Assembly: GCF_019649055.1 (NCBI RefSeq)
Contig: NW_026570256.1
Coordinates: forward strand, 1,054,001 to 1,118,000
Source of the DNA: Paramacrobiotus metropolitanus
Lineage: Eukaryota; Tardigrada; Eutardigrada; Parachela; Macrobiotidae
Length of the DNA: 64,000 nt
Direction: 5' to 3'
Part shown: positions 10,039 through 39,860 of the stretch, in pieces
Layout: the number at the start of each line of letters is the position of its first letter
Numbering within the stretch: position 1 is the stretch's first letter
Notes under the pieces: generated by a model
The model's input: only the letters and a program-made list of their open reading frames with translations
What the model was told of the DNA's origin: nothing
Database searches by the model: none
Position numbers and translations under genes: made by a program

Positions 10039-12042
<2,004 letters not shown>

Positions 12043-13035: not shown

Positions 13036-16000
13036 ATGGGAAATTACTTGTATTGCTGTATACAATACGCAGTGACGGCTGCAGTGTTTTTATGCAGAAC
13101 AACAGCCGTATCGAACGAAAACGATGAAGTGTTTATTACGGAAGGCAAGTGCTATCATTCTTGTAAAAAAAGCCGTTGCAGGTCTTTTGGCATTATATAT
13201 AACATTATTAGTGTTCAACTGCAGCACTCAAACTCCATTAACGGAGATAACTTCTCCTGCTTTTAGAATACCATGTAATTTTGAAATTTGTTTTGCATGC
13301 CTGTTAAGCGCTTCCATTGTGAAGTGTTGATAAAATAGCACTATTAAGTACAAGATCTATACTACGCGCGGCGCCCCATAGTTTTGAGATCTCTATAACC
13401 ATAAAACTTCTGGAAAAACGGACAACGCCATCAGATCCGTAATAGTTCAGAAGTGGCCGGCATGTGTTTTTTTTTATGAAAATATCGAGCCGGCATCAAG
13501 CCGGCATCAAGACCAGATTGATCCAACCCATCTTAAAGGTCACCTTGAAACTTAGAAATATTTGCCTAGATACAATACAAAATACCAATTGACATAATTA
13601 TCACACTAATTAAACCGAAAAATAAATAAGTTATTGTACTTATTCAAACACTCGCGTTATTCAAACATTGCTGCCGGTGTTGCCGAGCTCGAAACAAGTT
13701 TAAAATTAACCGATATAAAATGTAAAAATATCAAATATAAAATCAATACGAAAAATCACTGGACGAGTGAGTGACCGAAACACTATCACCGACCACTGAG
13801 CGGAATCTCTAGATGAGTGGGTGACCGAGCTACCACCACTGACCAGTAAGAAAAATCACTAGACAAGTGAGTGACCGAAACACCATTACTGCCCACTGAG
13901 CGGAATTTCTAGGTGAGTGAGTCATCGAGCGGGCTTTGCTCTGCTCACCTATAAAGGGCTCTGTGCACTGGACAGTAGTTGTAGCAGGGTCACATCCTCA
14001 CCTAGCGATTTTTCTCCTTACCTAGCGATATTTCTTACTGGACAGGTTGAGCTCGGTCAGTCACTCACCTAGTGATTGAGTGCGTCAAAAAATCGCTAGG
14101 TGAGTACGTGACCGAGCTACCACCACTGTCCAGTGCCCAGAACCCGTTAGGTGAAAGAGTACCGAGATACCACTACTGTCCAGTGCACAAACTCCGTTAA
14201 GTGATCTAGTGACCGAGCTACCACTACTGTCCAGTGCATAGATCCCGTTAGGAAGATGGGTGACCGAGCTACCAATACTGCCCAGCGCACAGAGACCGTT
14301 AGGTAGATGGGTGACCAAGCTACCAATACTGTCCAGTGCATAGATCCCGTTAGGTAGATGGATGACCGAGCTACCAATACTGTCCAGTGCATAGATCCCG
14401 TTAGGTAGATGGGTGACCGAGCTACCACTACTGTCCAGTGCACGAACTCCGTTAAGTGATCTAGTGACCGAGGTACCACTACTGTCCAGTGCACGAACTC
14501 CGTTAAGTGATCTAGTACCGAGGTACCACTACTGTCCAGCGCAGAAACTCCGTTAAGTGATCTAGTGACCGAGTTACCAGTACTGTCCTATGCATAGATC
14601 CCGTTAGGTAGGTGGATGACCAAGCTACCAATACTGTCCAGTGCATAGATCCCGTTAGGTAGATGGGTGACCGAGCTACCACTACTGTCCAGTGCACGAA
14701 CTCCGTTAAGTGATCTAGTGACCGAGGTACCACTACTGTCCAGTGCACGAACTCCGTTAAGTGATCTAGTACCGAGGTACCACTACTGTCCAGCGCAGAA
14801 ACTCCGTTAAGTGATCTAGTGACCGAGTTACCAGTACTGTCCTTTGCATAGATCCCGTTAGGTAGGTGGGTGACCGAGCTACCAAAGCTATCCAGTGCAC
14901 AGAGCCCGTTAGGTAGATGGGTGACCGAGCTGCCGATACTGTCCAGTGCATAGATCCCGTTAGGTAGATGGATGACCGAGCTACCAATACTGTCCAGTGC
15001 ATAGATCCCGTTAGGTAGATGGGTGACCGAGCTACCAATACTGTCCAGTGCACAGAGCCCGTTAGGTGAACGTATGACCAAACTGCAATTTTACTGAGCA
15101 AAATAGAGCAGGGCCTGCTTTAAGTTCTTAATGGGTGACCTATCTAGCACCACTGTCCAGTCTTAGCGTCCTTTTAGTTTGTAATGTGATATTCTCGTGG
15201 GTGATTAGATTCGGATGGTTTTTCGCTAAGAAAATTTAACAAAAAATGATCTGTAAAGTCAAAGTAATTGCGTTCGACTGCACGAAACCAAAACATCCAT
15301 TTTTTTTATAAAATTTTTGTTATCGGGCTCTTCAGATTTATCCGTTCTAAGTTAACAATCCGCAAACCGGCCAAGGAGTTTAGAACCCAAGAAACGCGGA
15401 GGCGAAGCCGAGGCTGTTTCTTGTAATACAATATTTCTGGAGTTGCGTTGGTTACAGAGTGTTAAATGCATAAGCAACGACCTTAAGTGTATCACGCAAA
15501 CATTGCGGAATGTGATTTTGCAGAAAATTATTAAAGCATTCTGTCGGCAGATTTGTTCTATACACCACTCAATGTTTCGGACGCCAATGCCATGGCGGAA
15601 GCCGGCGCGAAATTGTGGCCGAACCGCACCGGCATCCCGTATCTTTTCAGCAATGATTTTGGTGAGCATACCAGTGAGGGTGTTATAATGCATATGTATT
15701 ACAGTATTTCTAAAATGTTTATGTTGTAATAAACCGACGGAGCAAATTGCGATCGGCGCTGCAAAAACCAGATTCGTCTAAAATTTGCCACAGATCATAG
15801 CAGATTAACGGAAACTGCTCTTCAGTCTTGGATTTCCAGTTTTCTTGCTATTTTCACAAGATTTCCACTAATAGTGCGAGCACTGGGTCGGAGCTCGTGA
15901 GTAGTGTACTGTATTACAACATGATAATCGTTACTATCGTACCTAATATTGAGGTCCCCAACTTGATGGGTAATGGTACAAGTAACGTATTGCAGTGCAC

Positions 16001-17703
16001 ATGCAGCGACCCGGCAACTGCAGTACTAATTACCGACATTCAGTTTGTAAAAACCGATCACCTTTTAATTCTTCTTGCCACGTTGTGTTCTGCAGATGAT
16101 TCGGATAAGAAAGTTGTGCTGAAAGCTCTTAGACAAATGGAGAAGAAGACAAAAGAATGCATTCTGTTCAAAGAAAGGACTGACGAAAGGGATTACCTAT
16201 ATTTTGCGCTAACTGATGACGGCGAGTGTGTGAACATTGGGCAATAACTTAAAGAACTGTCGTAAAACTAATAAACCGATGTGCCATGCTTCGCAAAAAG
16301 ACCAAGAAAATCTTGCGTATAAGCGCTTGCCTGCTCTCTGCTGTTTCAGATGCCGATTTTTACCCGGGCCGGGGCGATTGTACGGGGGACAAGAAATCGC
16401 ATTGGGAGGAAAAAACTACTCGTCATTATTCAGGCGTTGTTTCAGTACATCTGATATTCAGCAACTCGTAATGCGTTCTTTGGGTTTTGATTGGGAGCAC
16501 CTACGTCCCGACCGTGACTGTTACGTTGATATCATACCAACCAGCATCGCCGCAGAAGATGACTATAATTCGGATTTCCAAATCAATTCAACAATCTACA
16601 CTTTTGGGACCAAGTATGACTACCATTCCGTCTTACACTTTCCTGCATTCTACGACGCCATATCGCGCAAAAGCCCTTCCATTGTGCCGAAGCAAGGGCT
16701 GATTGTTAGGATGGGACAAAGCGGCCTGAGTCCGACAGATATTGCGCGAATCAAAATCGCCTACAAGTGTCCGCTGAAAATCCACCCGGCTGCTAAAACA
16801 AAGAAAACTCAGGAAGATTTTCCAAAGTTTTCGATGGAGCAAATGACGGAGGATGAGTGCGGTGCGCAGTTTAACCGCTACTGCAAACCGTACGTTGCCA
16901 CAACCGCAGACTGCGCAGACTGGAACCACTTCCAGATTGAATGCCAGTCGAATGTATCGGTGGCGGTACTGGAACATATGGCGCTGGAAATGGCAGACCC
17001 TCCACTGAAGCCAGTGTCTGTTTATGTCAGTGAAGAAGTCATAGCTAAATATTCGTTCTCACCGGTACAAATTCAGGTCGTTATGTTATTCCTGCGCTCA
17101 TGTGCCACAAATCGCGTGACGTCCAGGCTGGTCCAATTGAATTTTACCAATCTACTGAACTTAGAATTTTCCCGCTGTAACCGCTTGACTATCGAGAAGG
17201 GGGACTTTGAAACAACACGGCACCTACGAATAATATTGTTTTACCGGAGTACGATTGATAGCCTAGAACCGGGTACGTTTACGGACTTGCCGCATCTCGA
17301 GATAGTGTCCTTGGAATCACAGTTTAGGATTCATAAAACCTATAATTTTGATCCACCGTTCCGGAATTTTTTGCGCCGTTTGCATTGTGACTGCGAGTTT
17401 GCTTGGTATCGATCGTGGTGGCGAAACAACAAAAAGTTGCGGGCGAAAGTCGAAACCGGCCAACTGTACTCTTTTGAAGCACGATACACAAACACAAGGC
17501 TTGAAAACGATGAGTACACTTACGAGGATGTCTATCATCCCATTAACTGTAACGCGGATCCGTTCCCTCTCGGTCCTGAGTGGATCAGCTATTACACTCA
17601 GGCTGAATACTCCATTAATGAGCCAAACTGTACCGATGCCGCTACTAACGGGACCTTAAATGAAGTAACGTCCAAATCGTTGCAAGCAACAACATCTGCC
17701 TAA
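13036..17703 (+). CDS. Secreted astacin-like pseudoprotease fused to LRR domain, copy A
   Basis: Exons 13036-13144, 15551-15661, 16096-16225 and 16350-17703 give 567 aa in one frame. Intron 1 uses a GC donor (AAGGCAAGT) and is 2.4 kb because it holds a minisatellite. After a hydrophobic leader come the astacin start (KLWPNRTGIPY), the middle with Cys118 and GGQEIAL, the motif LGFDWEHLRPDRD, YDYHSVLHF where active enzymes have a Met-turn, and the end LSPTDIARIKIAYKCP. Where astacins have HExxHxxGxxH this protein has Gln155, Leu156, Arg159 and Trp165, and the Met of the Met-turn is Leu, so zinc binding and catalysis should be lost. The second half has leucine-rich repeats (residues about 310-390) closed by an LRR cap (LHCDCEFAWYRSWW). 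A role as a binding or decoy protein is inference. Confidence 0.85.
13745..15080. repeat. 51-bp minisatellite array in intron 1 of astacin-LRR copy A
   Basis: From about 14090 to 15075 a unit of 51 bp repeats almost without break; a typical unit runs from CCGTTAGGTAGATGGGTGAC to CCAGTGCATAGATC. From 13745 to 14090 a longer, more diverged form of about 100 bp is seen (GAGTGAGTGACCGAAACAC). A block of 254 bp at 14401-14654 recurs at 14655-14908, a higher-order duplication of five units, one of which lacks 2 bp. Because 51 is a multiple of three, the minus strand shows 17-residue repeating open frames in several frames; the 2-bp deletion breaks them, so they are by-products. Confidence 0.9.
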
Positions 17704-18120
17704 AATTATTATCCGCGCACTGCTACTTTGCCTTTCGAAACGGCAGAAATAGCAATCGATTAGCCTTGAACAGCAAGTAGAGTAGCAGACCACCTCAAAC
17801 GAATTTGCGCAGCGAGAGAATTTTTTCTTCGAAATGTAGATTTAAATTATAAACTGCGAAAAATGTCATTTTTTTCATGTTTTCATTTGGTCAAATTCTG
17901 TTCGTTGTTAGTAGTCCGTCGTTGTGCTATACTCTTTTTTACGCTCTTTGACATTGTTGAATCGTGAAAAGCGGCTTTTTCTGAAAATCTACAACTTTGT
18001 CAAAATCATCTTCTGCCAGTTGCTGGTAAATCAGATAAAGTATACTGCATATGGCTGCACATATATATACGAACTGATATATATAGTATACGAACCGAAA
18101 TTGTCATTTGGCAGCTGAAT
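17704..18120. other. Intergenic spacer
   Basis: AT-rich sequence after the stop codon of the astacin-LRR gene and before the LINE remnant. It holds a run of TATATA text near 18060-18090. No gene seen. Confidence 0.4.
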
Positions 18121-18860: not shown

Positions 18861-19150
18861 ATTTGATTACACTCTGGCAGATTACAGCACTCCAAAAGAA
18901 ACGTTCTGTAGAAGAATTACGTTAATTCAAGCCGTCGCGTTGTTGTCCGTCGCGAGAGAATGACCAAGTTAAAACAATGGCATTAGTTTTCTTCATTGAC
19001 TTGCACTGGTTCGACTGAGCCAGCGCTGTTGCAGTACACATAATAATGATAATATACTGCCAGCCGCCTGACACACATCTCAACTCAAAACTTGTTGCAG
19101 CAATGATTTCGGGCGTTTTGCCTTTAATCAGCACTACATGTATTTATTGC

Positions 19151-19154: not shown

Positions 19155-19478
19155 TGTTACATAACTAGCTTAGTCATGTACCGCCGTTAACCTATGGTCA
19201 TATATGTTTTCTCCTATGGTCATGCACCTATGGTCATGTGTTCGTTTGTCCTATGGTCATAGTCCATGTTTTGCCTTTCTCATGCCCTTGTGAGCCAGAT
19301 GTACTGACAATGAGTGATTGTCTGATATTAGGTCGACTCCCTTGATGTTCTGTTATTTCCGGCTTAGGTCGTTATATAAGCCTATGTTTACTTGTTATTT
19401 GTTAGTTCTTAGCTGAGTATTATTAAAGTGGCTAAAACCCGATATTCATTACGCCTTACGGGTAGTGTAAGCGTATCA
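19155..19478 (+). repeat. 5' LTR of Ty3/gypsy element
   Basis: 324 bp beginning TGTTAC and ending GTATCA. It contains four copies of CCTATGGTCAT between about 19190 and 19262 and a TATATAAG box at 19373. It differs from the 3' LTR at two positions only: ATTTCCGGC against ATTTCAGGC, and ACGGGTAG against ACGGATAG. Confidence 0.95.
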
Positions 19479-19480
19479 TT

Positions 19481-19494
19481 TGGTGCCGAAAACC
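19481..19494 (+). other. tRNA primer binding site
   Basis: TGGTGCCGAAAACC starts two bases after the 5' LTR. The leading TGG pairs with the CCA end of a tRNA. Which tRNA serves as primer was not decided. Confidence 0.75.
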
Positions 19495-19541
19495 TTTTGA
19501 TACCGTTACCTTTAGTACGTTCGTTTCGTGGTGGTAGTCTT

Positions 19542-22500
19542 ATGTCAGTAAAGGGGGAGATTGACTCCCTGGGCAACTTATTTTCTGACGACGAAGATAA
19601 ACCGGTTGTGGACGACTTGCCGACTGTGGAGACTACGATGTCGAAGCCGGACGTATCAGGTGGACGGCAGGCTCCGGCATTCTCTGTGAATGCCCGAGAG
19701 TTGGCGGACGCGATGGGATCGCTAGCCGTGGCGACGGACGTGCGACCGCCGGTGTTCACCGGGAAAGCCGGTGAGAACGTTGCGCAGTGGGTTCGTAGGT
19801 TCCGGACGGTTGCGCAGGCGTTGGAGTGGGACGATGCGAAGCAACTGACGCAAGTCCCTGTGTACTTGACTAGCCACGCGGGTCAGTGGTACAACAATGT
19901 GTCGGAGGACGGGATGAAGCCCTACACGACGTGGAAGGCCTTCAAGGACGCCCTCCTGGCACGCTTCCTCACGGAAGATTGGAAGTTGCAGTTGAAGCTG
20001 AAGATTAGTCAACGTAAGTTACAAAAGAACGAATCCGTTGAAAACTATTATAACGACATGGTTGACCTATGTTACGAATACGACACCAAAATGGACGATT
20101 TGGATGTCCTGCTGAAGCTGCGGAACGGACTTTACCCGGAGATCGACAAGATGCTAGTCACCTCCGCAGCCAAGACGCCTCAGGGATTCTTCGCGGACCT
20201 GCAGAAGGCGGCGCAGTCCTTGCGGCGAGAGGAGCAAGCCAACCAGCGACAGCAGGCGGCGGATCAGCGTGCCAACAACCATTTCCGTCGAAGTGGCGGT
20301 AAGCCAGAATTTCATTCTAAGTTAACCGCTGCTGATTCCAACCACAGCGACGCATCGAAACCGGCACGCACCGGAAACGCATTGACCACACCACGTAAAG
20401 ATAAGTCCTGCTGGAACTGCGGATCAACGGATCACTTGCTTCGGGATTGTCCGAAGCGGGCAAAGGATGCCAAGGGAGCTGCGCCGAGGGCGGGACTCCG
20501 GATGATGCGCGGAAGCGCATTGGACCGCACAGGCACGGACGACCAGACACTGGAAGCGGCAGCCACGCTGGCCGCTATGTCCGGGGCGGATGCCGGCTGT
20601 GCGGCGTATGGGGCAACGGCGTGTGGGTATGTGTACCGTATGATAGACGGATACCCGGTTGCGTTGTTAGCAGGTACGTGTCCTGGCTGTATTGAATCCA
20701 CGCCATTCCGAAGCCGACCTTTGGACACAACTGCGGCGCATGAGCTGCGCGTGTACCAGGCCGAAATGGAGGACAAAGGTCAGTCATCGGATGATTCTAG
20801 CGATACCATCAGCATTTATGCCGACTCAGTCTGTGAACCGCGCAATCGGCGTGGATCAGCTGACAGCACTGCTACAGTTAACGGAGATGCACGGCATGCA
20901 AGCACGCAAACGGACGCCGGCATACAAACGGTCAGTACAGTCAGTGTCGGTGTGCAAGCTAATAATTTACTGCTAGTCAAAGCGGAGGATGCAGATGAAT
21001 TGATCGATGTGGATGTCCAATTTCATTGCGGTAAGACGTTGCGTCCGCTTCGGGACGGTGATTTGTTACCATACAAGTATGAGATTGGCAAGGACTCCTT
21101 CGGATTGTGGGAAAAGATTCCACGAAAGCGCCCTCTGTACACGATGATGCGTACGTCTGGCGATGGGTGCGAAGGTCGTCACGCTGTGCTCGGAACGCAC
21201 ATGTGCGTGGATGTGACCTTGAACGGACAGGCTGCACGTGCCTTGGTGGACACTGGTGCCAACCTCTCCGTTGTGAATCGAGGCTTCCTGGAGCGGAAGC
21301 TGGATGTCATGTCGGATCCACTGATGATGCCGGTGGAACTGGGTGATGGGAGTACGATCCGTACAACGGGTAAGATCGTACTCGATGTTGCGGTAGCAAA
21401 CCAGAAGCTGCCGGTGGCTTTTTGTGTTTTTGACAATGTCAGCAACGAGGGATACGAGTGCGTGCTGGAATGCAACTTCCTGCGCCAACCCGGCTGGCTG
21501 GTGGATGTGTGCAATGCGACGCTCTTGTACGTGGGACAGGATGGTACCACGGTCACGCATGGAGGATGTGGTGACACGGTGGTGACGGATACCTGCGGCC
21601 ACGCCCGGGAGGCGGTCATGATGCCGGCGGCGGCCCTGTGCGCCCGGATGACCGCGGATCAGGAATCCATGCTGACGACGCCACGAGTGAATCAGCTTAT
21701 GAAGTATGGCGATCCGGATGTACCGGAGGATGAGCTGGCAATGTGGGAGTACGATTGGCCACGCCGTCCCGTTTCGGATTTTGACATTGGAAACGCTGAT
21801 ACAACCGACGGGGTGAGTCGGATAACTAAGTTGATTGAGAAGTACGGTGACCTTTTTCATACTGAGGGCTGTAAAATGGGTCAGGCTAAGGTAGAGCCGT
21901 TCCGTATTGACCTGATGCCGGGTACGAAGCCGAAGTTTCGGAATCAGTACCGGTATGCACCGCCGGAAGTCGCGGAGATTAACCGGCAAATTAGCGCAAT
22001 GATTGACAAGGGGGTGATTAGACCGTCCCGCAGCGACTGTTCTAGTCCCATTGTCTTAGCGCGAAAGGATCATGGGCGCAGCTGGCGCTTGTGCAATGAC
22101 GTCAGGGGTGTTAACAGTATAACGATTTTTGATAAGCACCCTCTGCCGCGTGTGGACGATTGTTTGCAGGCGTTGTCTGGCAAACGGTATATCTCCACGT
22201 TGGACTTGGTTTCCGGCTACTGGCAGATGCCATTAGCGGAGGAGTCGAAGCCGTTGACAGCCTTCCAGTCGCCAATGGGGTTCTACGAGTACGAGGAACT
22301 GTGCTTTGGGCTCAAGAACGCTCCATCGTACTTCCAGCGTACCATGACAACAATCGTGGGGGACCTCATCGTGCGGGGCGTCGTTGCGGTCTACTTGGAT
22401 GATGTGATCATCGCGACGTCTACATTGGAGGAGCATGAAGAAGTATTGGAGGCGCTGTTTTCTCGATGTCGGGAGATCGAGTTAATGTTCAAACCGAAGA

Positions 22501-23390
22501 AGTGTCACTTTCTAAAAGCGACAGTCAACGTACTGGGATTCACGGTAACGCGGGAAGGCGTGGTGGCCGACCCTGAAAAGGTACGTGCCATTACAGATTT
22601 TCCGGTTCCCGCAAATCTTAAAGCCGTACGTGCGTTTCTCGGTCTAACCGGGTATTACCGGTGCTTCATCAAAGACTATGCGGCGCTGGCCTGTCCGCTG
22701 TACGAGCTGACGAAGAAGGACGTGCCGTTCGTCTGGGAGCAGCTGCAGGAGGGGGCATTCGAGGCGTTGAAGAACCGTCTCGTCTCGTCGTTGGTGCTTG
22801 GACACTTTGACGTATCGCGACCGGTGGAGATCCACCCGGACGCCAGTGAATACGCCATCGGAGTGGTCATTCTGCAGCAGGATTGCGACGGTGTCTTGCG
22901 TGTGCTGGCTTATGGGAGCCGCCGCTTGAACGCCGCGGAGCGGAACTACAGCACCACGGAGCGGGAGTGTTTGGGTATCGTCTGGACCGCAGATAAGTTT
23001 CGCTACTATCTGTTAGGTCGTGTTGTGACGGTCATCACTGACCACCATAGTTTGTGTTGGTTGGTGAACATTCAGTCTCCCAGTGGTCGCTTGGTCCGTT
23101 GGGCACTTCAACTCCAGGAGTTCGACCTGGTGATTCGACACAAGAGCGGAGCGAAGCATGCCGATGGAGACTGTCTGTCTCGGTACCCACCGGCTACGGA
23201 AACCGGTGTGCTGGCGGTGATGGCGGTACGTGAGGAGACGGGCCCCACCACGCAAGCAATGTTGGATGCACAGTCCAATGACCCTTGGATTCAGGAGGTG
23301 ATGGAGCAGATGGACTCGGTCAAGAGCGTTCAGAAGGTGTACGCCGTGAAGGGACGGGTTGCTCTATCGCGAGTGGAAGAGTCAAGGTGA
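19542..23390 (+). CDS. gag-pol: Gag-protease-reverse transcriptase-RNase H polyprotein
   Basis: The first ATG of the long frame is at 19542 (upstream codons in the same frame lie inside the LTR and primer site), giving 1,282 aa. The gag part ends with a zinc knuckle CWNCGSTDHLLRDC near residue 290. The aspartic protease has LVDTGANLSVVN (codon for Asp at 21249). Reverse transcriptase shows LDLVSGYWQMPL and the catalytic YLDD at 22392. RNase H follows with IHPDASEYAIGVV and the TTERECLGIVW helix. The frame ends just after RNase H, where Ty3 elements normally run on into integrase; integrase continues in the +1 frame from an overlap at 23359. No clear slippery site was seen, so a 1-base lesion is more likely than programmed shifting. 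Confidence 0.9.
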   Translation: MSVKGEIDSLGNLFSDDEDKPVVDDLPTVETTMSKPDVSGGRQAPAFSVNARELADAMGSLAVATDVRPPVFTGKAGENVAQWVRRFRTVAQALEWDDAKQLTQVPVYLTSHAGQWYNNVSEDGMKPYTTWKAFKDALLARFLTEDWKLQLKLKISQRKLQKNESVENYYNDMVDLCYEYDTKMDDLDVLLKLRNGLYPEIDKMLVTSAAKTPQGFFADLQKAAQSLRREEQANQRQQAADQRANNHFRRSGGKPEFHSKLTAADSNHSDASKPARTGNALTTPRKDKSCWNCGSTDHLLRDCPKRAKDAKGAAPRAGLRMMRGSALDRTGTDDQTLEAAATLAAMSGADAGCAAYGATACGYVYRMIDGYPVALLAGTCPGCIESTPFRSRPLDTTAAHELRVYQAEMEDKGQSSDDSSDTISIYADSVCEPRNRRGSADSTATVNGDARHASTQTDAGIQTVSTVSVGVQANNLLLVKAEDADELIDVDVQFHCGKTLRPLRDGDLLPYKYEIGKDSFGLWEKIPRKRPLYTMMRTSGDGCEGRHAVLGTHMCVDVTLNGQAARALVDTGANLSVVNRGFLERKLDVMSDPLMMPVELGDGSTIRTTGKIVLDVAVANQKLPVAFCVFDNVSNEGYECVLECNFLRQPGWLVDVCNATLLYVGQDGTTVTHGGCGDTVVTDTCGHAREAVMMPAAALCARMTADQESMLTTPRVNQLMKYGDPDVPEDELAMWEYDWPRRPVSDFDIGNADTTDGVSRITKLIEKYGDLFHTEGCKMGQAKVEPFRIDLMPGTKPKFRNQYRYAPPEVAEINRQISAMIDKGVIRPSRSDCSSPIVLARKDHGRSWRLCNDVRGVNSITIFDKHPLPRVDDCLQALSGKRYISTLDLVSGYWQMPLAEESKPLTAFQSPMGFYEYEELCFGLKNAPSYFQRTMTTIVGDLIVRGVVAVYLDDVIIATSTLEEHEEVLEALFSRCREIELMFKPKKCHFLKATVNVLGFTVTREGVVADPEKVRAITDFPVPANLKAVRAFLGLTGYYRCFIKDYAALACPLYELTKKDVPFVWEQLQEGAFEALKNRLVSSLVLGHFDVSRPVEIHPDASEYAIGVVILQQDCDGVLRVLAYGSRRLNAAERNYSTTERECLGIVWTADKFRYYLLGRVVTVITDHHSLCWLVNIQSPSGRLVRWALQLQEFDLVIRHKSGAKHADGDCLSRYPPATETGVLAVMAVREETGPTTQAMLDAQSNDPWIQEVMEQMDSVKSVQKVYAVKGRVALSRVEESR

Positions 23391-27376: not shown

Positions 27377-30300
27377 CTAATGGGAATGCTTGACAGTGTA
27401 TCCGGTAATTTTCTTGGTTGTCAGGGCAAATCTCTTGGCTTTACTTGTAGAATTCGAACGAACCTTACCAGTAGGAGCCTCTGTGAAAAATGCGATAAAA
27501 CACATCAAAAGAAAGTCCGTAGATTTGATGGCATCTGCTTGTGGCTTACCTGTTGCTACTTTTACAGCTGCGTTAGCAGCATACGTTTCCGGACATTCTG
27601 GTTCATTTACGGAGTATGCGGTCTGAGCGTGATAGTCCATCCATTCGACACTGCGAGGAAAGGGGTCAACATGGCAGTCCACCGGATAGTACAATTCTTC
27701 TTTCTTGTAATCCCCACTTTCTAAATATGAATCATTGTATGGCCCACCAAAAGAATAAAGCTCGCCTCTATCAACGCGAAGCCGCAGATTCTTATTGTTT
27801 GTCCACCAGGATCGATACCAGGCGAATTCGCACGCGCAATGAAGCTTCTGTAGAAACTTCTGGAATACCGGCTCGAAAGGGTAGAACCTTTCGGTTTCTG
27901 GCAGGGCTTCTAATGAGACAATTTGAAGATGGGGTAAATTAATAAAGGTGCCAGGCTGCATGGCTGCAATCGTACTGTTGTAAAACATTATAATTCTCAG
28001 CCGCACTGAAGTGGTGAAATCCGATTTATCGATGACCATGTTATAACAGTTGTTCAGTTCAAAGTACAGCAGATTTGTAAAGTTGAGATTTTGTAATTTC
28101 AGAGTCACACGGTCGCTGATACAACTCTCCATACAGAGTTCCACAACTTGGCGCTTTACCGGCTTGAAAGAATACTTGGAGAGTAGTTGTTCGTGTACAT
28201 CGATGGTTACTGGTCGTAATGGCTGTTCGGCCATCGCCAGCGCCATTTGCTCCAGCACCGCAACCGATGCATTCGACTGACAGACGACACTTTAATCTCG
28301 AAATTTTGGCTTTGTGCAGTTCGTGATTATGCTAACATCTGGCTTGCAATAGCGATTAAACTGTGCAGAACAATCGTCGTCCGTCATTGGTTCAAGCGAA
28401 AAATTCGGAAAATCGTTTTCAGGGCCTTCTTCCTTCCCGGGTAAAATGGTTAATGGACATTTAAAGGCTATCAGTATTTTGGCCACATCCGTGGGACTCA
28501 GACGGGCCTGCTGCCCCATGCGAACAATAAGTCCTTCCTTGGGGACGATAGAAGGAGCCGTAGATGCATTGGCGGCGGGGGAAGCCATGAAGGCATCGAG
28601 GTGTAGAATAGAATGATAGTCATACTTGGTCCCAAAAGTGTACATGCTTGGATTGATCTGCCAAGGAATATCGTCGGCATACGGACTGTAGTCGATGTCC
28701 CTTACATGGACGTCGACATACTTGTCGCGGTCGCTGCGTTGCTGCTCACCGCTGAATCCCAGAGCAAGCATAACCCGATACTGGATTATGCCTAATCCGA
28801 AACAGTATTCGGACCGTGTATGGTTAGGCTTTCCCAGGTCAATTACATACAATATACTCGTATCATAAGGGTAACGGGTTGTTCGGTCAATCATCCAGTT
28901 TCTGCACCTGATGGAAAAATTTTGGTAAGTGATAACCATGCAATACCAAGCAGTTTTTGTTGCAGCGTTGCAGTTTAGAAATACAACGGGGCAACGCTGC
29001 CTGTGTTCTTGGTACAGTTGAGTGCAGTCGCAATCTCGATGAACTGTTTTTGTTTTTCTAGAGGTTTACTTTCCTAATTAATCATTTTTAACCCTATTCC
29101 AGCGACCTCCTATCCTATGTTCGAATCTTGGTCCACTAACAGTAATTGCCTATTTACTTCAACAAAAAACCTTTTCAGTATAACAATAACCGTAAATCAT
29201 CTGCGTGACTGCGTCAGTTAATACCATTTGTTCAAACTCCAGAGTAATTCACCCCAAAATTGCTGGAGCCTGTGCTGCAATAGCTACGCGCTGCATCTGT
29301 CACTAGAGCTGCGTGATTCTCTTATAAGCGCATCTGCATTTGGTAGAGAACAATGAAACATACACAGTAGCCGCCGCCAAAATAATGGTTGTTTCGAGTG
29401 GTACATCGTACATATGACATAAACAGCGCACCGACCTGTAGGAATTCGCTATAGATTGCAATCGTACTTGCTCTGATTGAACTTAATTTCTTTAACTTGA
29501 AGTTAATTTTGCAATCGTACTTGCTCTGATTGAAGTTTATGTCAGACATAAACTACAATTAATGTTACCGCTTCCGGAATCCACTGGGGGGTGCTGGAAC
29601 CCCGGCTGCTGGGCGGCTGGTACTCTCGTGATCGGCTGTGTGCGGTGACCCTGGGTCAGCGAGAAGCCGGCCGACCGGGGGTCGGCGCAAGAGTGCGACC
29701 AGTGCCCTGCGCAACCGAAGGCCCCTTTATTGAGCAACGCGAAATAACAGCAGCACAAACAGCAGGGTGTGGCGGGTGGTAAAGAACAAATCACTCGCGC
29801 GCACACGAACAAGAAATGCAAAGAACATCGGCCAGAAATGCAGAACCCAACGCGGGCACAGAAACAGTGCCGAGAGCAAAAAGCAGGCGCGTGAGTGCCG
29901 GCGGCTGCTTTGATCTAAGCGGCCACAGCGATTCGCAGCGCCACCAACACAGGTAGCTGCCTACACAAGGCGAAAAGGGAAACGCGGGAGCACACATCCT
30001 CCAGCTAACATTAACATCAATTAACGTTGTTAATTGTCATCTAATACATTGTTAGAATGCTAAGCTGAACTTACTTTCCTGTGGTGCTGTCTGAAAAGAA
30101 GATGTGAGCATCCTCATCTGTAACTTCTTTAAACTGGATACATCCTTTGGTCTTTCTTTCCATTATGCGCAACGCCTTCATAATGATTTCGCGTTCGGAT
30201 TCGTCTGCAGTTAGTAGTACGAAACCCATAACGAACAAAATATGTTGCAGTTTCGACATTCTACAGATTAAAAGATTTGGTATTCCGACGATGTCACGAT

Positions 30301-31068
30301 ATTGTCAGTGTTAGAAGAGTATCGTAAAAAATAATGGTAAGCGTAAGCCAGTGTCACATAACGTTAAAAAAGTTTTTTAAAAACTGTTTTCTGGTTTTAT
30401 TGATTAAATTTGTGCGTTAGCGTTCCTATTTCAGACAAAGTTTAACGTACGGACAATAGGATTGGTTGTCTTCTTTGAGACTGAATTACGTAAGGGTATT
30501 CCTCCAGTTTACTATGCACTTACTGAAAACTGAGTCTATAAGAAAAGGGATGGCAGTACGGTTTGGCCACAGCCTATGACCAATCTTTGCAGTTTCGTTG
30601 ACTTCCGGAATGTTGACAGGCATGTTAAAAAGGTCTAAAAATAACGTTTAATGAAGTTATCAAGTCTCATGCTGATTATTTTCTTACTTGTAATTATACA
30701 AAGCACACAATATGACGTTTTGTTTACTGTTCTCAGTTCTAGATTCGTTAGGGAAAAAATGCAGTGTCACTGCAGTAGTCGGCATCGGCAGATCTAGGAT
30801 ATAGTCAGTAGTGACCACACAAAAATTTCAGCTGACAAATTATCACTGAAGTAGGTTTATCAGTAAGCAACGAAATTGCAAAATATATCCGGTTTGCCTT
30901 CAGCATAAGAAGTACAACATAGATAAATACTTCAAGCACAACTTGTTCAATTTTTGACTTTCCTTCAGTAATCGCGACATCTTCACTTTCATCCGATACT
31001 GCTGCGACGAAGCTGAGAGAAACTGCAACAGTTATTACGCAAACCAAAGAACAGTATTTGATGAACAT
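27377..31068 (-). pseudogene. Astacin-LRR family, copy C, broken
   Basis: On the minus strand exons 31068-30963, 30634-30524, 30204-30075 and 28907-27377 match copies A and B in size (106, 111, 130 and a long last exon) and phase. Three faults are visible. The first donor is changed from GT to GA (GAAGGAAAG where copy B has GAAGGTAAG). The frame has TAA at 28292-28294, in a region where A and B read on to the next Cys. Intron 3 has taken up a solo LTR. The zinc motif is again lost (Tyr, Arg, Leu and Gly in place of the first His, Glu, second and third His), while YDYHSILHL and LSPTDVAKILIAFKCP remain. The LRR part and cap (LHCACEFAWYRSWW) are intact in the lower piece, and the C-terminal tail is longer than in A and B. 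Confidence 0.85.
29563..30010 (-). mobile_element. Solo LTR in intron 3 of copy C
   Basis: A 448-bp block, richer in GC than its surroundings, begins TGTTACCGC and ends GCTAACA, so its ends are the inverted pair TGTTA and TAACA. TTAA lies directly on both sides (29559-29562 and 30011-30014). AATAAA on the minus strand near 29732 suggests it is read leftward. It differs in sequence from the LTRs at 19155 and 26778, so it comes from another element. Confidence 0.7.
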
Positions 31069-32348
31069 GTGAATAGTATAGCGCTTAGCCGTTCGAATCA
31101 TTCTGCAGCAGTAGTGCGTCTTAAGCAGTAAATCGGCATTCGCGGCCGGGATGAGAGTTAACTCGACAAACCCAACTGTGAAACGCTGTTCTTTAAAATT
31201 AATTACAACTTACAACATATACGTGCTTTATACATAATACGCCTCAAGCAGTGCTATTTATCGCTTAGCACCTTACTGCCTGATGCAAAAAGTAGCAGGA
31301 ATTACAAAAACACCTATACGCCATGCACTCAGCAGTCGCAAAGATTGTTAATCCATTTTGTTACAAAATGGCTGCTGAAATATGGCTGCGCCGCTGCGGA
31401 GATGCCAGAACTGCGCCGGACTCAGAAACCTATTACAGCCTGGTCCCATGGAGCATGCCCGTGGAATCGAGGGGCCGGGTAGCATACACGGGTTGTGGGT
31501 CCGTTAGAAATTAAGAAATAATAAGAATCAACTAAATAATAAAAATGACTGGAACAGGTAATAACACCGGTTATAAACATGTATAAAAGAAGATATAAAC
31601 GATTCTCAAAGCTTGAAGTTATACTTGTAGTATGACCGCGAATGCTAGTTATAATAACTTTGATGGCTACATGTTTGTGCCTTATAAAAATATATAACGA
31701 CAACGAAAAAATTTAACAAAATCGGTCTTATATTGGATGACGACTGGCAACAGTTAGTGTAGCACAAAAATCAACGAAGATTCAATGATTCTTCACATAA
31801 TATTTGATTTATTATGGTTCTTAAGAACTTTACAATAGGACGAACGTCTCGCTTATACTGAGACTTTGGTGAGCACCGGCTGGACTCTGCCAACTGAATC
31901 TCACAAGTCCGATGCAGTGTTCAATGACTTCGCATTTTGAGGCTTAGACTGCAGTTTTCTTGGAGTCCCACATAATCTCCTCGTTGACCAGCAACATTGA
32001 CAAATGTCGTCATTTCCTGTTATAAAGCACTTGCCGATATTGCCTATGGGTGTTTTGCAATGTCTGATACCTACATGTTTGCAACATGATATTGCGATTG
32101 ACAACACTATAAGCGAGCGTAACAATGTTGTACTGTGCGATAACAATTTTTTATAGATTGCTAGCGGCACAGTATAATCAACCTGGTGATAGGGATCAGC
32201 AAAGCAGTATAACAACATCTCCAATTTTTTCGGTTGCTTGTGTAATGCTAATGTCTGTACTATTTGTATTCTGCAGGAAAGCGAATAGCAGACTAGATAC
32301 ACTACACAAATGTAGACATAAGAAACTTGAACTCAAACGTTTTTGAAA
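31069..32348. other. Intergenic between divergent astacin-LRR copies C and B
   Basis: About 1.3 kb between the starts of copy C (minus) and copy B (plus), so it should hold both promoters. No clear TATA box or coding frame was seen. Confidence 0.4.
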
Positions 32349-34542
32349 ATGGAAGAAAAAACATGCAACTGCATACTGTACATAATAGTTGTTGTAAGCT
32401 TTCTTGCCTTCGCCAAAGCAGTGTCAGACGAAAGCGAAGGTGTGGGGATTACGGAAGGTAAGCTCTTTAAATTGTGTTATAGTAATAAGAATAAACGTTA
32501 AACCGCTTGTGTGTCAAATAAATTCACGGTGCAATCGCTGCACTGTTCATTCCAACGATCAGTTAGTCGTTTCGTTTAGAATTGGTATGGAATAATAATG
32601 TTCGATTTCCACATCCTGTAAAAAGCGATAGGAATATCAATGAGTTATAGCTTTTTGTTGAGCGCAGAACTACGAATTTTGTAAAATATTATGTTTTCAG
32701 ACATTTTTTACATCCCGATAAATACGTCGGACCCTAATGTCATTGCGGGAACCGGTCCCAGACTTTGGCCAAACCGTACCGCTATTCCGTTCTATTTAAG
32801 CTCCGAATTTGGTGAGTGCGGCAGACGTGCATCGTAATACAGCAAGGTGCTAACTAAGCAATTCCAACAAATCACAGCCACACTTTCACATGGCATCGTT
32901 TTAAGTTTTACTGCTTTTTGCAGATCAATCAGAGAGGAAAAAAGTTCTGAAAGCTCTTGCTCTAATGGAGAGACAGACAGAAGAGTGCATCATTTTTCGG
33001 ACATGGTCAGGGGAAACAGATTATCTCTACTTCCGCCCAAGAAATGATGGACTGTGAGTTCCAGTCTGGCGACAAACACCGTGCTTTAATTGTTGCAAGA
33101 AAACTTCACCGTACTAAAAACCGAATTTGTACATTCTATGTTAGTAAAACCTTTGCCAGAATTTACTTTTACTGTTGTCTTGTAGGTGTGGAGCATTTAC
33201 TGGGCAACGGGGCGGACCGCAAGCAATCGACTTAGGGCGGTTCAACGAGTCGGCCAAATACTCCTGTTTCACTATAACGGACATTCAACGTTACACTATG
33301 CGCTCAATTGGCTTTGAGCATGAGTACAGGCGCCCCGACCGCGACGAACACATCGACATGCGCAAAGGAAACTTGATGAACAATGAAGATTACCCCACTC
33401 TATTTTCAATCGATGCAACGATGTACACCTTTGGACTCAAATATGACTACCACTCCATTCTGCATTTAGGAGCATTGGCGGGCAGCAAAACAAACGAGCA
33501 TCCGACAATGGTACCGAAAAAGGGGCTCATTGTTCGTATGGGACAGAACGTACCTCTAAGTCCGTCAGATGTTGCAAGAATCATGATAGGGTATAAATGT
33601 CCACTAAACATTCGCCCCGGCAAAAAAGAGGCCAACGTCGAGGAGAATTTTATAAATTTCTCGATGGAACGAATGACTGATGATGAATGTGCCGCGCAGT
33701 TTAACCGTTACTGCCAACCAGACGTGACCACCATCGATAACTGTAACGAACGGAACGATTACCGTATTGGGTGTCGATCGACCGCATCGGTTGCAGTACT
33801 GGAACGGATGGCGTTGGATATGGCAGGCCCCCCACTTAGACCAGTATCCATCCATGTTGAAGAGCAGCTCCTTTCCACATATTCATTTACGCCAGTGCAG
33901 GGTCAAGTCGTGAAACTCCAGCTGAGTAACTGTACCACAGACCGCGTAACGTCCAGATTAATCAAACTGAACTACACCAATCTGTTGCACTTTGAGCTGT
34001 ATCACTGCTTTAATTTGACTATCGAGAAGGCAGACTTCAAAACATCCCAGCAACTGGGAATGATACTCTTCTACAACACTACCATTGTTGATATGCAGCC
34101 AGGCACGTTCTCTGACCTGCCAAATCTCCAGATCCTGTCTTTGGAGGCTTTGTTGGAAAGTCAGAAAAACTACAATTTTGATCCGAATTTCCGAAACTCC
34201 TTACATGATCTCCATTGCGGCTGCAAGTTTGCTTGGTTTCGCTCGTGGTGGCGCGGCAGTCATAACCTGCGACTTAGAGCGGAAGTCGGCCAAGTATATT
34301 CATTTGAAGCTCCCTACTCGGACAGAAGGCTGGAAAATAGCGAGGTCGCTAAAGAAGATCTATATCATCCTGTGAACTGCCGTGCCGATCCATTTCCTCT
34401 CGGACCCGAATGGATCAACTATTACGCGCAGATTGAATACTCTGTTAATGAGCCAAACTGTATCAATGCAGTCGCCAATGCAACTGCGAATGGGCTAATA
34501 TCTAAACCAACGCTACAACCAAACATCCTCGGCCGGCGCTGA
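32349..34542 (+). CDS. Secreted astacin-like pseudoprotease fused to LRR domain, copy B
   Basis: Exons 32349-32457, 32701-32811, 32924-33053 and 33186-34542 give 568 aa. The first three exons are 109, 111 and 130 bp, exactly as in copy A. The leader (CILYIIVVVSFLAFAKAVS) is a good signal peptide. Astacin features: RLWPNRTAIPFYL, CGAFTGQRGGPQAIDLG, SIGFEHEYRRPDRD, YDYHSILHLG and LSPSDVARIMIGYKCP. In the zinc motif the first His, the Glu and the second His are Arg, Tyr and Arg; the third His is kept. Catalysis should be lost. LRR repeats and a cap (LHCGCKFAWFRSWW) follow. All splice sites are GT-AG and no frame fault was seen, so this is the best-preserved copy and is likely expressed and secreted. 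Confidence 0.88.
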
Positions 34543-36950
34543 ATATCACAGGTGTTGTTAAAATATCTTCATTGCACACCAGAGCTTCTCCTTGGAAAGG
34601 TGATGACCGTGATGTTATCAACCAATCTTCAATCACGACTTGCACAATAAAGCAATTTGTTCCATAAGCAAGAAAAGCAGCCGCCCTTTTTAAGGGCATC
34701 ATGGCTAAAGGAAAGGATTTTGCTTGAAAAAGTGAAGATTTATTATTAAAAACGTACGAGTTATGAATGAAGAAGTCGAGTTCTAAATAACGACAAAATT
34801 GTAGTCAACGTTTTGGATTTTGGATAAACTAGACACAACAATTATGCTATGTTCGCTGTTGTTGAACATTATGGAGTGGCTGCAGTCCCTTTTGGTGTTG
34901 TCGAGTCATACAAGTACAGATACGTACGTAAGTAACCAATAAGAACGCCGTTGAGTTAATTTACAAATGCGACGACAAGTCTACCATCAAGCAGAGCGTC
35001 GGTCAGTGAACGACTGACAGACGCTCAAATGCCAGTTGTACGGTAACTGGATTCCTTTAAAAAGAAGGTGACCTGTCCCAAACACCGGGTGGCTGAATAA
35101 ATCGGCCCTATGGTTTACTACGGTGCGCTGGGTTTATCCAATGCTTTATTGACAGCATATTTGCTTAACCCATTGACGGGCATTGGCGTTCAGGAGGCGA
35201 CAAGGTGTTTGGGATTTTTTCCGCAGCGATCGGTAACATTTATTCGTTATCCCTTAATGTAATAAGCAACAGGGGACTTTAAAGCAACGTTAAAAACACA
35301 ATTTGAAGTTGTGTCTCAAGTCAATTAAGAACAACAGGTTCGCGAAAATCGCTAATTTTGAATTTTTCTAACTACTGTAGGTCGCGCTAATTAACTAATT
35401 AGCGGATGAACAAATAAACCGGAGATAAATCAACAAGGTAGAATTGACAACGCTTTATTCAAATATGCCTAATATGGATTCTATAAGCTGAACCATAGCT
35501 GACCACAGTCCGCCAAAAACTTGTGTCGCCTGCTAAACGCCAATGCCCATGAAGGGTTACGAATTCATGGGCGGGTGCAATTTCGACAGTTATTTTTTAT
35601 TGCATAATCGGATCAAAATTACTGTCGGTTTGGCGTTTGCACACTAACATGCGCCACACGATTCCGGTTGTCGCAAGCCGGCTAAAACCGCTGCCGCTGA
35701 CTAGCACCCCGGGCGGTCGACGAAAAAGCAAAATCGTATCAAAAGTTGTCAGCTTCCGGACAACAAACAGCGTATATAACAAAGTAAAGGGCAGCACAAA
35801 ACTGGGCGTTCTGCCACGTTTCTACCTATGCTGGCGATTCATCGCTTGGGCAAACAAAGGCAAGGCAGCCGGGTAGCTTTGAGAAAACATGGGAGTTTTG
35901 AGTTTTGACCAGCCTCAAGCGATTGCTAACTCTAAAGTGCTCATTGGTGATGTGCACATTCTTCCGGGTTACATCCGGTTGCTAGCGCGTTCCAACAAAT
36001 GCTAGTGACCACTAATATCTAAATCGGCGCCAATCTCCAATGCAGCTGGACCTTCCCCACCGCTTTTCTGATAATGGCACCTGCGGCCAAATCCAGGAAA
36101 AGTGCCACTGTGCGCAATATGCAGGCAACTAGGCGCAGCCGCACTGCAGCAGTGTAATGCTGAACTGTATAAAGAGTGCTTTGTACAGTACCATATGACT
36201 TATGAGACTGTAATAAAAGTTTTTGGAAGCAGAAATGCTGCTAACATCGTTTATATTTTATTTCTTTATCTGTAGTAGTGGTCACAATACATGGAAACGA
36301 GTTTTGGTAGTTTTTAAGTTTTTGCTGACCAGTGGTCAATGCGTTGACCACTTCTATACTGCTGTTTTAAAGTACTTTTTTTTGTACTATTTAATGAACT
36401 AATTGCTTCTACTTAGTTCCTGTTCGCCTAATTATTACAAAATTAAACATTTTTATGCTGTAGACTGTCCATGGGCATTGGCGTTGGCAAGCGACATAGT
36501 CAGCACCGCTGACCTATGGTCAGCACAAGCTCACAAAAAATTCCCTTACTTAATTGATTTTTTTCGTCGGGAAATCCCAATTTTCAAAAGGAAACTCGCA
36601 CTCCTTCGGGTACCGCCCGCTGGAGGGTTAATTCAAAATAGTAATTATTAAAGAAGTGAAATTGTCACGACGTGGAGCGTCGTGCTCTATTATAATTAAC
36701 CAACTAAAGTACCCAAACACACAAATACCACATATATAACAGGACATTGCAGTGGCAGCCGTTGCCATGCATCACAGAAATCAACAAGTACAAAATACTA
36801 AATTAAAAAGTATTCAAGTACATGGATGATGGATCATTGTACTGTACGCCAAGCTGGGGTCTGTTGCGATCGCCAACTCCCCTCACTACGTCAGATAATC
36901 CTTTTGTGCATTCATAACCAGCCACCACCCGGGTGAGTGTAAATTGAGCT
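34543..36950. other. Intergenic with a MITE-like element
   Basis: 2.4 kb without a recognisable gene. It holds the inverted-repeat element at 35167-35558 and a single related arm at 36470-36495. Open frames at 35597-35876 and 36403-36651 are short and lack family features. Confidence 0.4.
35167..35558. mobile_element. MITE-like element with about 45-bp imperfect terminal inverted repeats
   Basis: The left arm begins AACCCATTGACGGGCATTGG and the right arm, read on the minus strand, begins AACCCTTCATGGGCATTGG; both continue GCGTT then AGGCGACA. No protein is encoded in between. A clear target duplication was not found. A further copy of the arm core (CATGGGCATTGGCGTTGGCA) lies at 36470 without a partner. 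Confidence 0.6.
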
Positions 36951-37567
36951 ACCACAGCTGTATTTCACGAACCTTTTGCATTTTGAAGTGTACAACTGTT
37001 ACAATATGGTCATCCAAAAGGTGGACTTCACGACTTCAGAGCGACTGCGAATAAATTTTATTTTACAATGCAACAGTTAATGCCTTGCAAGTGAACTCAT
37101 TTACGGATTTGCCACACCTTCAAATACCACTCATAAAATCTATAATTTCGAACAGCCATTTCGCGCTTTTTTGCGCATTCTTCACTGTAGCTGTGAGTTC
37201 GCTTGGTGCCGATCATGGTGGCGAGCAAATAAAATGTTACGGCTTCATGCAGAAGCAGGCGAATTGTTTTCCTTTGCAGGTCCTTATTCCAACACTAACT
37301 TTGACAGTGATCAATACAGCAAGGAGGACCTTTACCATCCAGTGACCCGACGCCGGCCCGTTTCCTCTCGGTTCGGAATGGATCAACTACTACACACAGA
37401 CTGAATATTCGGTTAACGAGCCCATTTGCCAGCAAACGGTGTCCAATTCGGTTACGGCTACTGCTGTGGAAACGTTCCATAAAACGCCTTTGACGAAACC
37501 TGCGATGGTCAAAGTCATTTCTAGTACTACCAGCGCAAATAGAATATCCGCTTCGACCACCAAGTAA
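36951..37567 (+). pseudogene. Astacin-LRR family, copy D, only the LRR end left
   Basis: The + strand reads LLHFEVYNCYNMVIQKVDFT, then after breaks SFTDLPHLQI, then the cap ILHCSCEFAWCRSWW and SYSKEDLYHPV-like text, and in a further frame PLGSEWINYYTQTEYSVNE down to TAA at 37565. At least three frame changes are needed. The astacin half and the first three exons are absent upstream. It matches copies A-C throughout, so it is a truncated and decayed duplicate. Confidence 0.85.
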
Positions 37568-38760
37568 AGCAGCAGATCGGCTTTGTCGCTAGTGACAAAA
37601 TATGTCTTACACAATCTGATCGGCTCGGATGCTCTACAGATATCGGAAAAAATTTAAAGTTTGGTGTTTGCCTATCAGTTTGTACACAACTTAAAGCTAG
37701 GCATTAAATAATATTCCGTTTTTTTCATCCGATGCCGATTTTTACACCCATGCTCTCATGACTACACCGCACTGAATGTCAACAAGGGCGATGGTCTTCT
37801 GCTATTAAAATTATGGTAGTGGTACGAGTATTTCATTCCAGTTAGATTAACGGTAGGAACCAAGCAACAAAAACCCATAACATCATTCTGTTCATCTAAC
37901 TTAAAAGCAACTTGCACATCTTCCTACTCAACCTGGTCGCTAACCGTACAGAGAACAGAAACCGCATTTCCTGTCTGGATCTAGACACTAATTCTCTGCG
38001 CAAAAACTCATCGAGAGACAACAAATTTGCTGAGTTTTGGAGGTTCTGTGTTATTAGAGAAATCTACTAGAATGTGGGTTTACCGGTTGTTGCGGTTAGA
38101 GTTGCGGCATTGCCGATAGTAGAATCCGCTTGTCCGACAAAAGCCGACAGCCATACAGATCGGGAAAAAAATAACTGAAGCTGGCCCACTTAAGTGTATG
38201 TCGCCCATTCACTTATCATAGTGGCCCACTTAAGTGTCTTTACGAGTAGAGTCAGTTTAACCCCGGATTGCTCTATGTATTTAAGTGCTCATCGAAAACA
38301 GGACGAATGGACGCAGAATATGTTTATTGGAAAAAGCACCAGTGAATTTACGGATTCCTGCTTCAGAACAGGTGAAATACTGCTCGTAAATACATAAAAT
38401 CTCTCTAATCCGCACACCACCGTACAAAAAAAATCGTCCGTAATGTAGAGGTGTACGGTACTCACAGTTATTTGTATGAGTTTACAGTAATTTTGGTACG
38501 CGTTTTGGTATACTTAATACAGAGGGTGTACGTAGCTAAGTGTGTACGTAAGATGGGCATTTGTTTTTCGCATCGAATACATTAATGTTATACATATACC
38601 TTTGGAACCCGATACGGACAAAATTATGACAGTGAGGGAGTTAAGTTGTAGCAGATTTGCGAAGTTTAGTTGGAATATCCTTTAGGTCGCACGGCTAGTA
38701 ATACAGTACATTTCGCTCAACAGCAGCTTTACGAGTTGGACTTGCACGCGTCACACTTGC
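37568..38760. other. Intergenic, short direct repeat
   Basis: No gene seen. A 16-bp phrase TGGCCCACTTAAGTGT occurs at 38182 and again at 38222, each containing the palindrome CACTTAAGTG. Confidence 0.4.
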
Positions 38761-38779
38761 AAGCACTTGTTTGGAAAAA

Positions 38780-38975
38780 TCAGTCTTCATCGCAGATGGA
38801 TACATGTCTCATTGGTGGTACTGCCTTATCCAGCGCCATCCACTTGAACACGGCTACCGATTCTTTTGATCGGCAAACAATTCGCTAATCCACCCGGCAT
38901 GCACAGTTTTCGATGGTGGTAACGTCTGATTTAAAGTAGCGGTTAAACTGTGCGCGAAAGTCTTCTTCGGTCATT
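38780..38975 (-). pseudogene. Astacin-LRR family, copy E, linker fragment
   Basis: The minus strand reads AQFNRYFKSDVTTIENC, then a stop, then SVAVFKWMALDKAVPPM and RHVSIC. This matches the linker between astacin and LRR parts in copy B (AQFNRYCQPDVTTIDNC, SVAVLERMALDMAGPPL). Stop codon and frame change show it is dead. Confidence 0.75.
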
Positions 38976-38997
38976 GTTTTCGACAAAATCCAGGAGA

Positions 38998-39160
38998 CTA
39001 CTCACTTGGCATTTGTAGCCATCCATGATTTTTGCTGGATCGGTCGGATAGACGCACTCTTTGTTCGAATACCCGCTGTTGCATTGACAGCAGGGCTGGA
39101 TGTCCCAGATTATGGTGCCAGCGAAGATAACGTGGTGCGAATGGAATGGCATAAAAAAGG
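38998..39160 (-). other. Unrecognised Cys-rich open stretch
   Basis: The minus strand reads IQPCCQCNSGYSNKECVYP then DGYKC, ending at a GTGAGT that would serve as a splice donor. It could be a true exon or a relic; it does not match the astacin-LRR copies and I recognise no family. Confidence 0.2.
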
Positions 39161-39624
39161 GGGATAAGACTCACTTTATCACTTCTAAGCGCAGAATAAT
39201 GATGTTTTAAACCATAATATAACCACAATCTCAATTAGTGCATTCACTGCCATGTACGATGTAGGAATTAATGGTCACATACTCCCATACCGAGTCGTCC
39301 GTACGGATGTGGCGACAGTGCAGTGTACGACAGCCGAATATTTAAACGTAGTCGTACAGTGCACTGCGCTGCATGCGCACTGAATGTGGATACGTGAGTA
39401 TGCGACCATTTAGTCCTACACTGCGTATTGGTACGTAAATTCCAGATACTAGAGTATCCCTGGAAGTACTTTTGGATACTAAAAACCCGTAATTTCCAGT
39501 CAACATTCAGGGCTTTCCTGTGCAATATCCACACTAGCGGACCAAAAAATTACGGCTTTTCAAGGAATTTACAATGACACGAATTTCGAGAACGATAAAG
39601 TTGGCAGAAACAACCATTGCCATC

Positions 39625-39860
39625 TAGTCGACCGCATGTTGATTCGTTTCCTCTTGGTACGAGACCTTGTCCGCCGCTCGTTTGGATGAAGCTACTTTGC
39701 AAGATGTTTTGGCAACGTATAGCCGTTTCGTTCGCTAATCGGTAAATGCCATATTTTGCAGTCCCATTTGCCACAGCACAGGAGTGAATTCCTTACAGTT
39801 TGGCTAGTTAACGGAGTATTCAATTTGAGTGTAGTAGTTGATCTATTATTTGCCAAGGCA
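39625..39860. pseudogene. Astacin-LRR tail fragments on opposite strands
   Basis: At about 39630-39655 the + strand reads HVDSFPLGT, like the VDPFPLG/ADPFPLG tail of the family. At 39785-39845 the minus strand reads INYYTQIEYSVN then a stop and PNC, which in intact genes directly follows. The two pieces are therefore inverted relative to each other. They are debris from a rearranged copy, perhaps the same one as 38780-38975. Confidence 0.6.

Follow-up and report, generated by a model that had tools for sequence, protein, structure and literature searches.

Astacin peptidases (M12A/PF01400) such as astacin, BMP1/tolloid, meprin and the hatching enzymes carry CUB, EGF, MAM or ShK domains downstream of the protease domain. 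Several metalloprotease families are known to include pseudoproteases, and leucine-rich repeats (LRRs) are carried by the LGI proteins. In a comparable described system the dead ADAMs ADAM11, ADAM22 and ADAM23 are receptors for secreted LGI proteins; the part of that source available to us has a single occurrence of “astacin”, within an enumeration of metzincins, and names no astacin pseudoprotease (PMC11266112). A word search of the open literature (titles and abstract openings) returned no astacin-LRR fusion and no pseudoprotease of the astacin family, which agrees, as far as so limited a search goes, with the initial annotation of the DNA discussed here, whose author knew of no such fusion. 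Here we analyze a 64 kb window (the whole stretch, positions 1,054,001 to 1,118,000 of contig NW_026570256.1) from the tardigrade Paramacrobiotus metropolitanus that holds two intact genes, copies A and B, and one broken gene, copy C, in which an astacin domain with a degraded zinc site is joined to an LRR module. Copies A and B belong to a group of dead family members in which purifying selection is strong, both in the LRR half and in that part of the astacin domain encoded by the last exon, and they are probably secreted astacin-LRR pseudoproteases.

Splice modelling gives A and B as intact genes of four exons each with matching exon phases (Table 1), and both match public records over their full length, A being LOC129589602 and B LOC129589626; the A protein is string-identical to record P0002, and B aligns to record P0001 with 100% identity and coverage in a protein search. 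Intron 1 of copy A has GC-AG splice sites. In both genes the active-site helix and the LRR half lie within the same open exon, so their joining is independent of predicted splicing; the fusion proposed in the initial annotation thus stands, and an annotation error as its source is ruled out. The N-termini, judged by eye, suggest that the A and B proteins are probably secreted. Among the last-exon frames, Pfam scores the Astacin domain at 63.8 (A), 76.3 (B) and 67 bits (C) against a cut-off of 22.5, and LRR_8 at 19.5, 16.4 and 13.1 bits, all under its cut-off of 27. The family profile does, however, have a sequence match to an LRR protein of solved structure, Toll-like receptor 13 (expect value, E, 1.9e-7).

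The zinc site itself is gone. Where HExxHxxGxxH is expected, A reads QLVMRSLGFDW, B RYTMRSIGFEH and C YRVMLALGFSG, as first reported; ligands and catalytic Glu are replaced, and A and B have no canonical zinc site. An intact motif was looked for in other frames, and HExxHxxGxxH is absent from all six frames of the 64 kb window. The Met-turn (SxMHY expected) reads SVLHF in A and SILHL in B and C. This change of Met to Leu had been listed among the signs of a lost protease; the substitution is real, but it is no sign of inactivity, since Leu also occurs in motif-intact paralogs among the annotated (P) and fetched (L) loci of the genome (P0003, P0007, P0013, L009 6147, L015 2857 and L011 2531).

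The predicted structure (second model) retains the astacin fold, and the list from its fold search is filled with astacin and other metzincin matches, with the LRR half barely covered; the first model, from 12 close paralogs, was poor (predicted local distance difference test score, pLDDT, 43.1) and was set aside. In a 12-row alignment (A2; A and B included, C excluded) E163, C95, C118, C144 and C255 are invariant. A structural or adhesive extracellular protein, in which the astacin shell serves only as a stable spacer while matrix or cuticle is bound by the LRR, independently of the paralogs’ substrates, would also conserve both parts, and the weaker LRR matches of the family profile do include receptor and matrix proteins (sequence matches to Toll-like receptor 13 at E 1.9e-7, LRRC4B at 0.0036 and chondroadherin at 0.006), as well as poor fold matches to GPIb-alpha (root-mean-square deviation 12 Å). 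A bare spacer has no obvious need, however, for the Glu adjoining the third zinc-ligand position, which is invariant in 17/17 rows of another alignment, nor for the SD element of the proregion, which may be the aspartate switch of astacin zymogens and which is retained in seven of the ten dead copies of the subfamily defined below (it is absent in C and P0014, and the P0012 model lacks that exon). We consider such a structural role unlikely.

As judged from sequence, A, B and C make up a derived part of a more extensive family of astacin-LRR proteins. The genome searched (169.8 Mb in 533 contigs) yields 164 exon-by-exon astacin matches, which are matches and not genes. At the closest annotated loci (P0001-P0014, P0015 being an isoform) the motif is kept in 5/14 and lost in 9/14, and in 36 fetched loci, a non-random set picked by score and position, 29/37 zinc-site motifs are intact and 8/37 are not (equal strings per locus counted once). 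The idea that the family as a whole had lost its protease therefore fails. Searched with a 269-position profile built from A2, the LRR module is detected in 29/36 fetched loci; the others are L012, L013, L019 and L020, which have no zinc-site motif, and L002, L007 and L024, where no module was detected within the fetched stretch. The distant motif-intact members L004, L029, L030, L032, L034 and L035 have two LRR modules in tandem, and P0023, annotated as “nas-29-like”, combines an intact motif with an LRR module. Loss of the site is seen again at other loci: L025 (C31) and L026 (C104), in a separate astacin-LRR clade, read HLTLHALGFFH and HLVLHALGLFH, keeping all three His with the catalytic Glu changed to Leu, and L024 (C50:810134) is a further dead astacin, LKILHALGFFY, with no LRR module detected in the fetched 9 kb. 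The family appears unexplored so far; the 16 P. metropolitanus records examined are named only “uncharacterized” or “nas-like”.

A 35-row tree (zinc and Met-turn columns removed, midpoint root; the zinc-motif loci L002, L005, L007, L023, L024, L027 and L028 left out) groups ten dead and ten intact members in one subfamily (support 97/97), with the motif-intact L006 adjoining it and the distant motif-intact lineages outside. Within it the dead copies P0004, P0006, P0009, P0010 and P0012 form a clade (100/100), A and B are placed as sisters, and the placement of C is without resolution. Parsimony on this rooting makes the intact motif ancestral and counts three changes of motif state over the whole tree, two of them forced by supported branches. 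The loss in L025 and L026 (HLxLHxxGxxH, Glu alone gone) is separate, at least two changes being required by supported branches.

Selection on the dead copies was measured from their codons, through the ratio (omega) of nonsynonymous (dN) to synonymous (dS) substitution rates in the last-exon astacin part (133 columns) and the LRR module; left out were P0010 and P0012 (DNA not fetched), the broken P0014 and C, L006, L011 2531 and the distant members. For pairs among P0004, P0006 and P0009 and for A-B, omega lies at 0.13-0.18 for the astacin part and at 0.09-0.20 for the LRR part. It is 0.23 and 0.13, respectively, for B-P0008, and 0.10 (dS 4.9) and 0.12 for B-P0004, and the astacin part of A-P0008 is saturated. 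A codon model on a tree of 15 sequences, with the P0008 branch and the stems as a third class, gives an astacin-part omega of 0.201 on post-loss branches versus 0.243 on intact ones (difference p 0.3; neutrality p 4.8e-27) and an LRR omega of 0.162 versus 0.192 (difference p 0.19; neutrality p 1.9e-66). Neutrality is likewise rejected if only the P0004/P0006/P0009 clade counts as dead (the strict model, p 8e-20) or if all dead members are held together (p 2.6e-39), and again without the zinc and Met-turn columns (3.2e-17 and 3.6e-33, respectively). In the initial annotation, neutral dN/dS across A and B would have counted against the proposal; for the dead group as a whole, neutrality is rejected and neutral decay ruled out. 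Invariant astacin columns number 40 across eight dead rows versus 86 across four intact rows, a comparison in which row number alone favours the same direction.

Decay is nevertheless real at individual loci. Copy C has an in-frame TAA at 28294-28292, where its astacin and LRR halves meet, and by eye its first-exon donor is GA, not GT; it is not the intact third gene it had been taken for. Within the span 13036..39860, A and B are thus intact, C is broken, and only two relics, D and E, lie between about 36.9 kb and 39860. P0014 is broken inside its LRR half (L017), and decay extends to the motif-intact L011 2531, which is split across two frames. All this fits duplicates that happen to have stayed open by chance, an explanation that the codon models refute for the dead group and that we regard as scarcely credible overall, although A or B singly could be a young loss of function.

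In the model with all dead members together, stem omega falls from 0.81 to 0.26 when the active-site columns are removed. Change focused on the active site along the stem is suggestive only, because the ambiguous branches in the strict model (omega 0.224 and 0.228) show no such contrast. The similar constraint on dead and intact copies, together with the kept fold, would also be expected of a protein that is still an enzyme with another metal site or mechanism; B retains the third His, and L025 and L026 retain all three, lacking only the Glu. Against this, the replacements vary from copy to copy, and the second His is the sole position with a recurrent one (Arg in six of the ten dead subfamily copies), which leaves continued catalysis very improbable.

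The large size and partly tandem arrangement of the family, the birth and death of its copies, and neighbours that include genes resembling cathepsins and an exon with a weak likeness to chitinase bring to mind immune or self/non-self recognition factors, i.e., expanded LRR proteins with varied ligands, some of which have lost the protease. The LRR half is conserved instead: in 7/7 dead pairs its dN is below that of the astacin part, and LRR omega is 0.16 on post-loss branches. Omega itself is less one-sided: of the six dead pairs with usable dS, three have the lower value in the LRR, two have the higher value there, and one shows no difference. A recognition role of this kind seems to us distinctly unlikely.

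Some intact members may also differ from the dead ones in how they are deployed. Judged by hydropathy sums (mean over 19 residues) rather than by a membrane predictor, five motif-intact members (P0007, P0011, L009 6147-7814, L014 2018-3613 and L015 6843-8549) have a C-terminal hydrophobic stretch (2.36-2.77) and form a branch with support 78/100, and the terminal stretch of the motif-intact L006 scores 1.80. No such stretch is found in 8/8 full-length dead models (maximum 0.63), the seven-residue tail of P0010 being too short for scoring.

That selection has continued after loss of the active site suggests a role in binding or regulation and not in cutting. The initial annotation had proposed secreted pseudoproteases joined to a protein-binding domain, and the dead motif, the rejection of neutrality in the dead group, the predicted astacin fold and the N-termini (judged by eye) support this; the proteins may be decoys, inhibitors or recognition factors, as it also suggested. 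We suggest that the LRR module would be the main target-binding part in dead and intact members alike. In intact members it would bring substrates to the protease or hold the protease at a surface, and the dead soluble members would either attach to targets identical to or overlapping with theirs or pair with active paralogs, thereby competing with or regulating cleavage without cutting. That the dead members compete with or regulate their active paralogs in this way, using both LRR and astacin shell to bind, has in our estimate about an even chance of being correct.

Several points weigh against this reading. The N-terminal lobe lies outside the codon tests, the post-loss labels presume loss on the stem branches, the codon-model figures come without a separate check of optimiser convergence, and the A-B omega is read at an astacin-part dS of 2.4, near saturation. 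Support for A and B as sisters is only 93/97, and an approximately unbiased (AU) test allows the ten dead copies to be constrained together (p 0.293), so that a single loss of catalysis in them is neither shown nor rejected. “Soluble” and “dead” do not split cleanly, as a membrane helix is likewise missing from the motif-intact P0003, P0005 and L015 2857-4383, and the role of the dead members may be unrelated to that of the active ones.

More tentatively still, the family may form a two-armed extracellular system found solely in tardigrades or in the Paramacrobiotus lineage, in which membrane-anchored and soluble LRR-guided astacins are matched by selected soluble dead antagonists sharing the same LRR address; this we hold to be possible but rather doubtful. 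If true, it would be the first pseudoprotease arm among astacins and the first astacin-LRR architecture. Protein searches found no homologs of the LRR half outside P. metropolitanus and also missed divergent members of the same genome (e.g., L006, with 45% identity to P0003), so absence of the fusion elsewhere is not shown by them. In the accessible parts of two tardigrade studies, metalloproteinases are among the gene families shifting expression in anhydrobiosis of two other species, without the word “astacin” (PMC5531438), and the main text on P. metropolitanus lacks “astacin”, “protease” and “metalloprotein-” (PMC11191345).

Table 1. Coordinates of the astacin-LRR copies, their relics and other features of the window (positions within the 64 kb).
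Feature	Position	Strand	Basis
Copy A, whole	13036-17703	+	splice model, four exons
Copy A exon 1, start resembling a signal peptide (by eye)	13036..13144	+	splice model, protein = P0002
Minisatellite arrays (large) within intron 1 of copy A	13750..15069	.	
Copy A exon 2, proregion (short) and astacin-domain start LWPN	15551..15661	+	splice model, P0002
Copy A exon 3, N-terminal lobe of astacin domain	16096..16225	+	splice model, P0002
Copy A exon 4, dead helix QLVMRSLGFDW, remaining astacin domain, LRR module, cap; single open frame	16350..17703	+	
Copy C, nearly whole but broken	27377..31101	-	frames, exon matches; exon 1, 3, 4 limits by eye
Copy C exons 1-3, recognisable	about 31101-30963, 30635-30525, 30204-30075	-	
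Copy C exon 4, dead helix YRVMLALGFSG and LRR half	about 28907-27377	-	
Copy B, whole	32349-34542	+	splice model, four exons
Copy B exon 1, start resembling a signal peptide (by eye)	32349..32457	+	splice model, protein = P0001
Copy B exon 2, proregion and LWPN	32701..32811	+	splice model, P0001
Copy B exon 3, N-terminal lobe	32924..33053	+	splice model, P0001
Copy B exon 4, dead helix RYTMRSIGFEH, Met-turn SILHL, LRR module, cap; single open frame	33186..34542	+	
Relic D, decayed LRR-half fragment, internal stop	36949..37560	+	36949-37344 53% to P0003; remainder by eye
Relic E, scrambled stop-bearing pieces of astacin end and LRR half	38541..39857	-	
Flavin adenine dinucleotide (FAD)-binding oxidase exons, berberine-bridge-enzyme-like	2837-5221	+	FAD_binding_4 21.8 bits, under cut-off 26.4; remainder by eye
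Cathepsin-like cysteine protease exons, two in tandem, propeptide inhibitor domain included	6846-7382 and 10185-10796	+	
Gypsy-like retroelement, gag-pol frames and long env-like frame, between copies A and C	19413-26740	+	by eye, frame list
Chitinase class I (GH19)-like exon	41105-41728	+	22 bits, under Pfam cut-off 25.5
Rhodopsin-family G-protein-coupled receptor, single exon	55529-56548	-	7tm_1 70.6 bits
Small cysteine-rich protein	59093-59524	+	weak gamma-thionin match, 15.3 bits vs cut-off 25.1

Compared with known astacin peptidases, these sequences are alike in their above-cut-off profile score (A, B and C), in predicted fold, and in cysteines and family Glu (A and B), and differ in lacking the zinc ligands and catalytic Glu, in the replaced Met of the Met-turn and in the LRR module downstream. 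With the motif-intact paralogs P0003, P0011 and P0023 they share domain order, LRR module and cap; those paralogs differ in their intact HExxHxxGxxH, in the C-terminal membrane helix of one branch and in the second LRR module of several distant members. The occurrence of dead and motif-intact members with the same domain order in one gene cluster offers a direct test of why a protease fold is kept after cutting is lost, and the LRR fusion suggests a means of aiming an astacin. The dead ADAMs resemble A, B and C as metzincin pseudoproteases with a similarly degraded zinc motif that work with an LRR protein, whereas their protease and LRR parts lie on separate proteins, the pseudoprotease is membrane-bound and the metzincin family is another one. 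ADAM pseudoproteases typically retain the Met-turn, unlike A, B and C, and Pfam lists no disintegrin or cysteine-rich domain either for P0003, P0011 and P0023 or for the A, B and C frames of the last exon. The pairing of ADAM22, a dead metzincin, with the secreted ligand LGI1, as described in the accessible text of PMC11266112, shows that binding alone can be enough for a combination of this kind to function.

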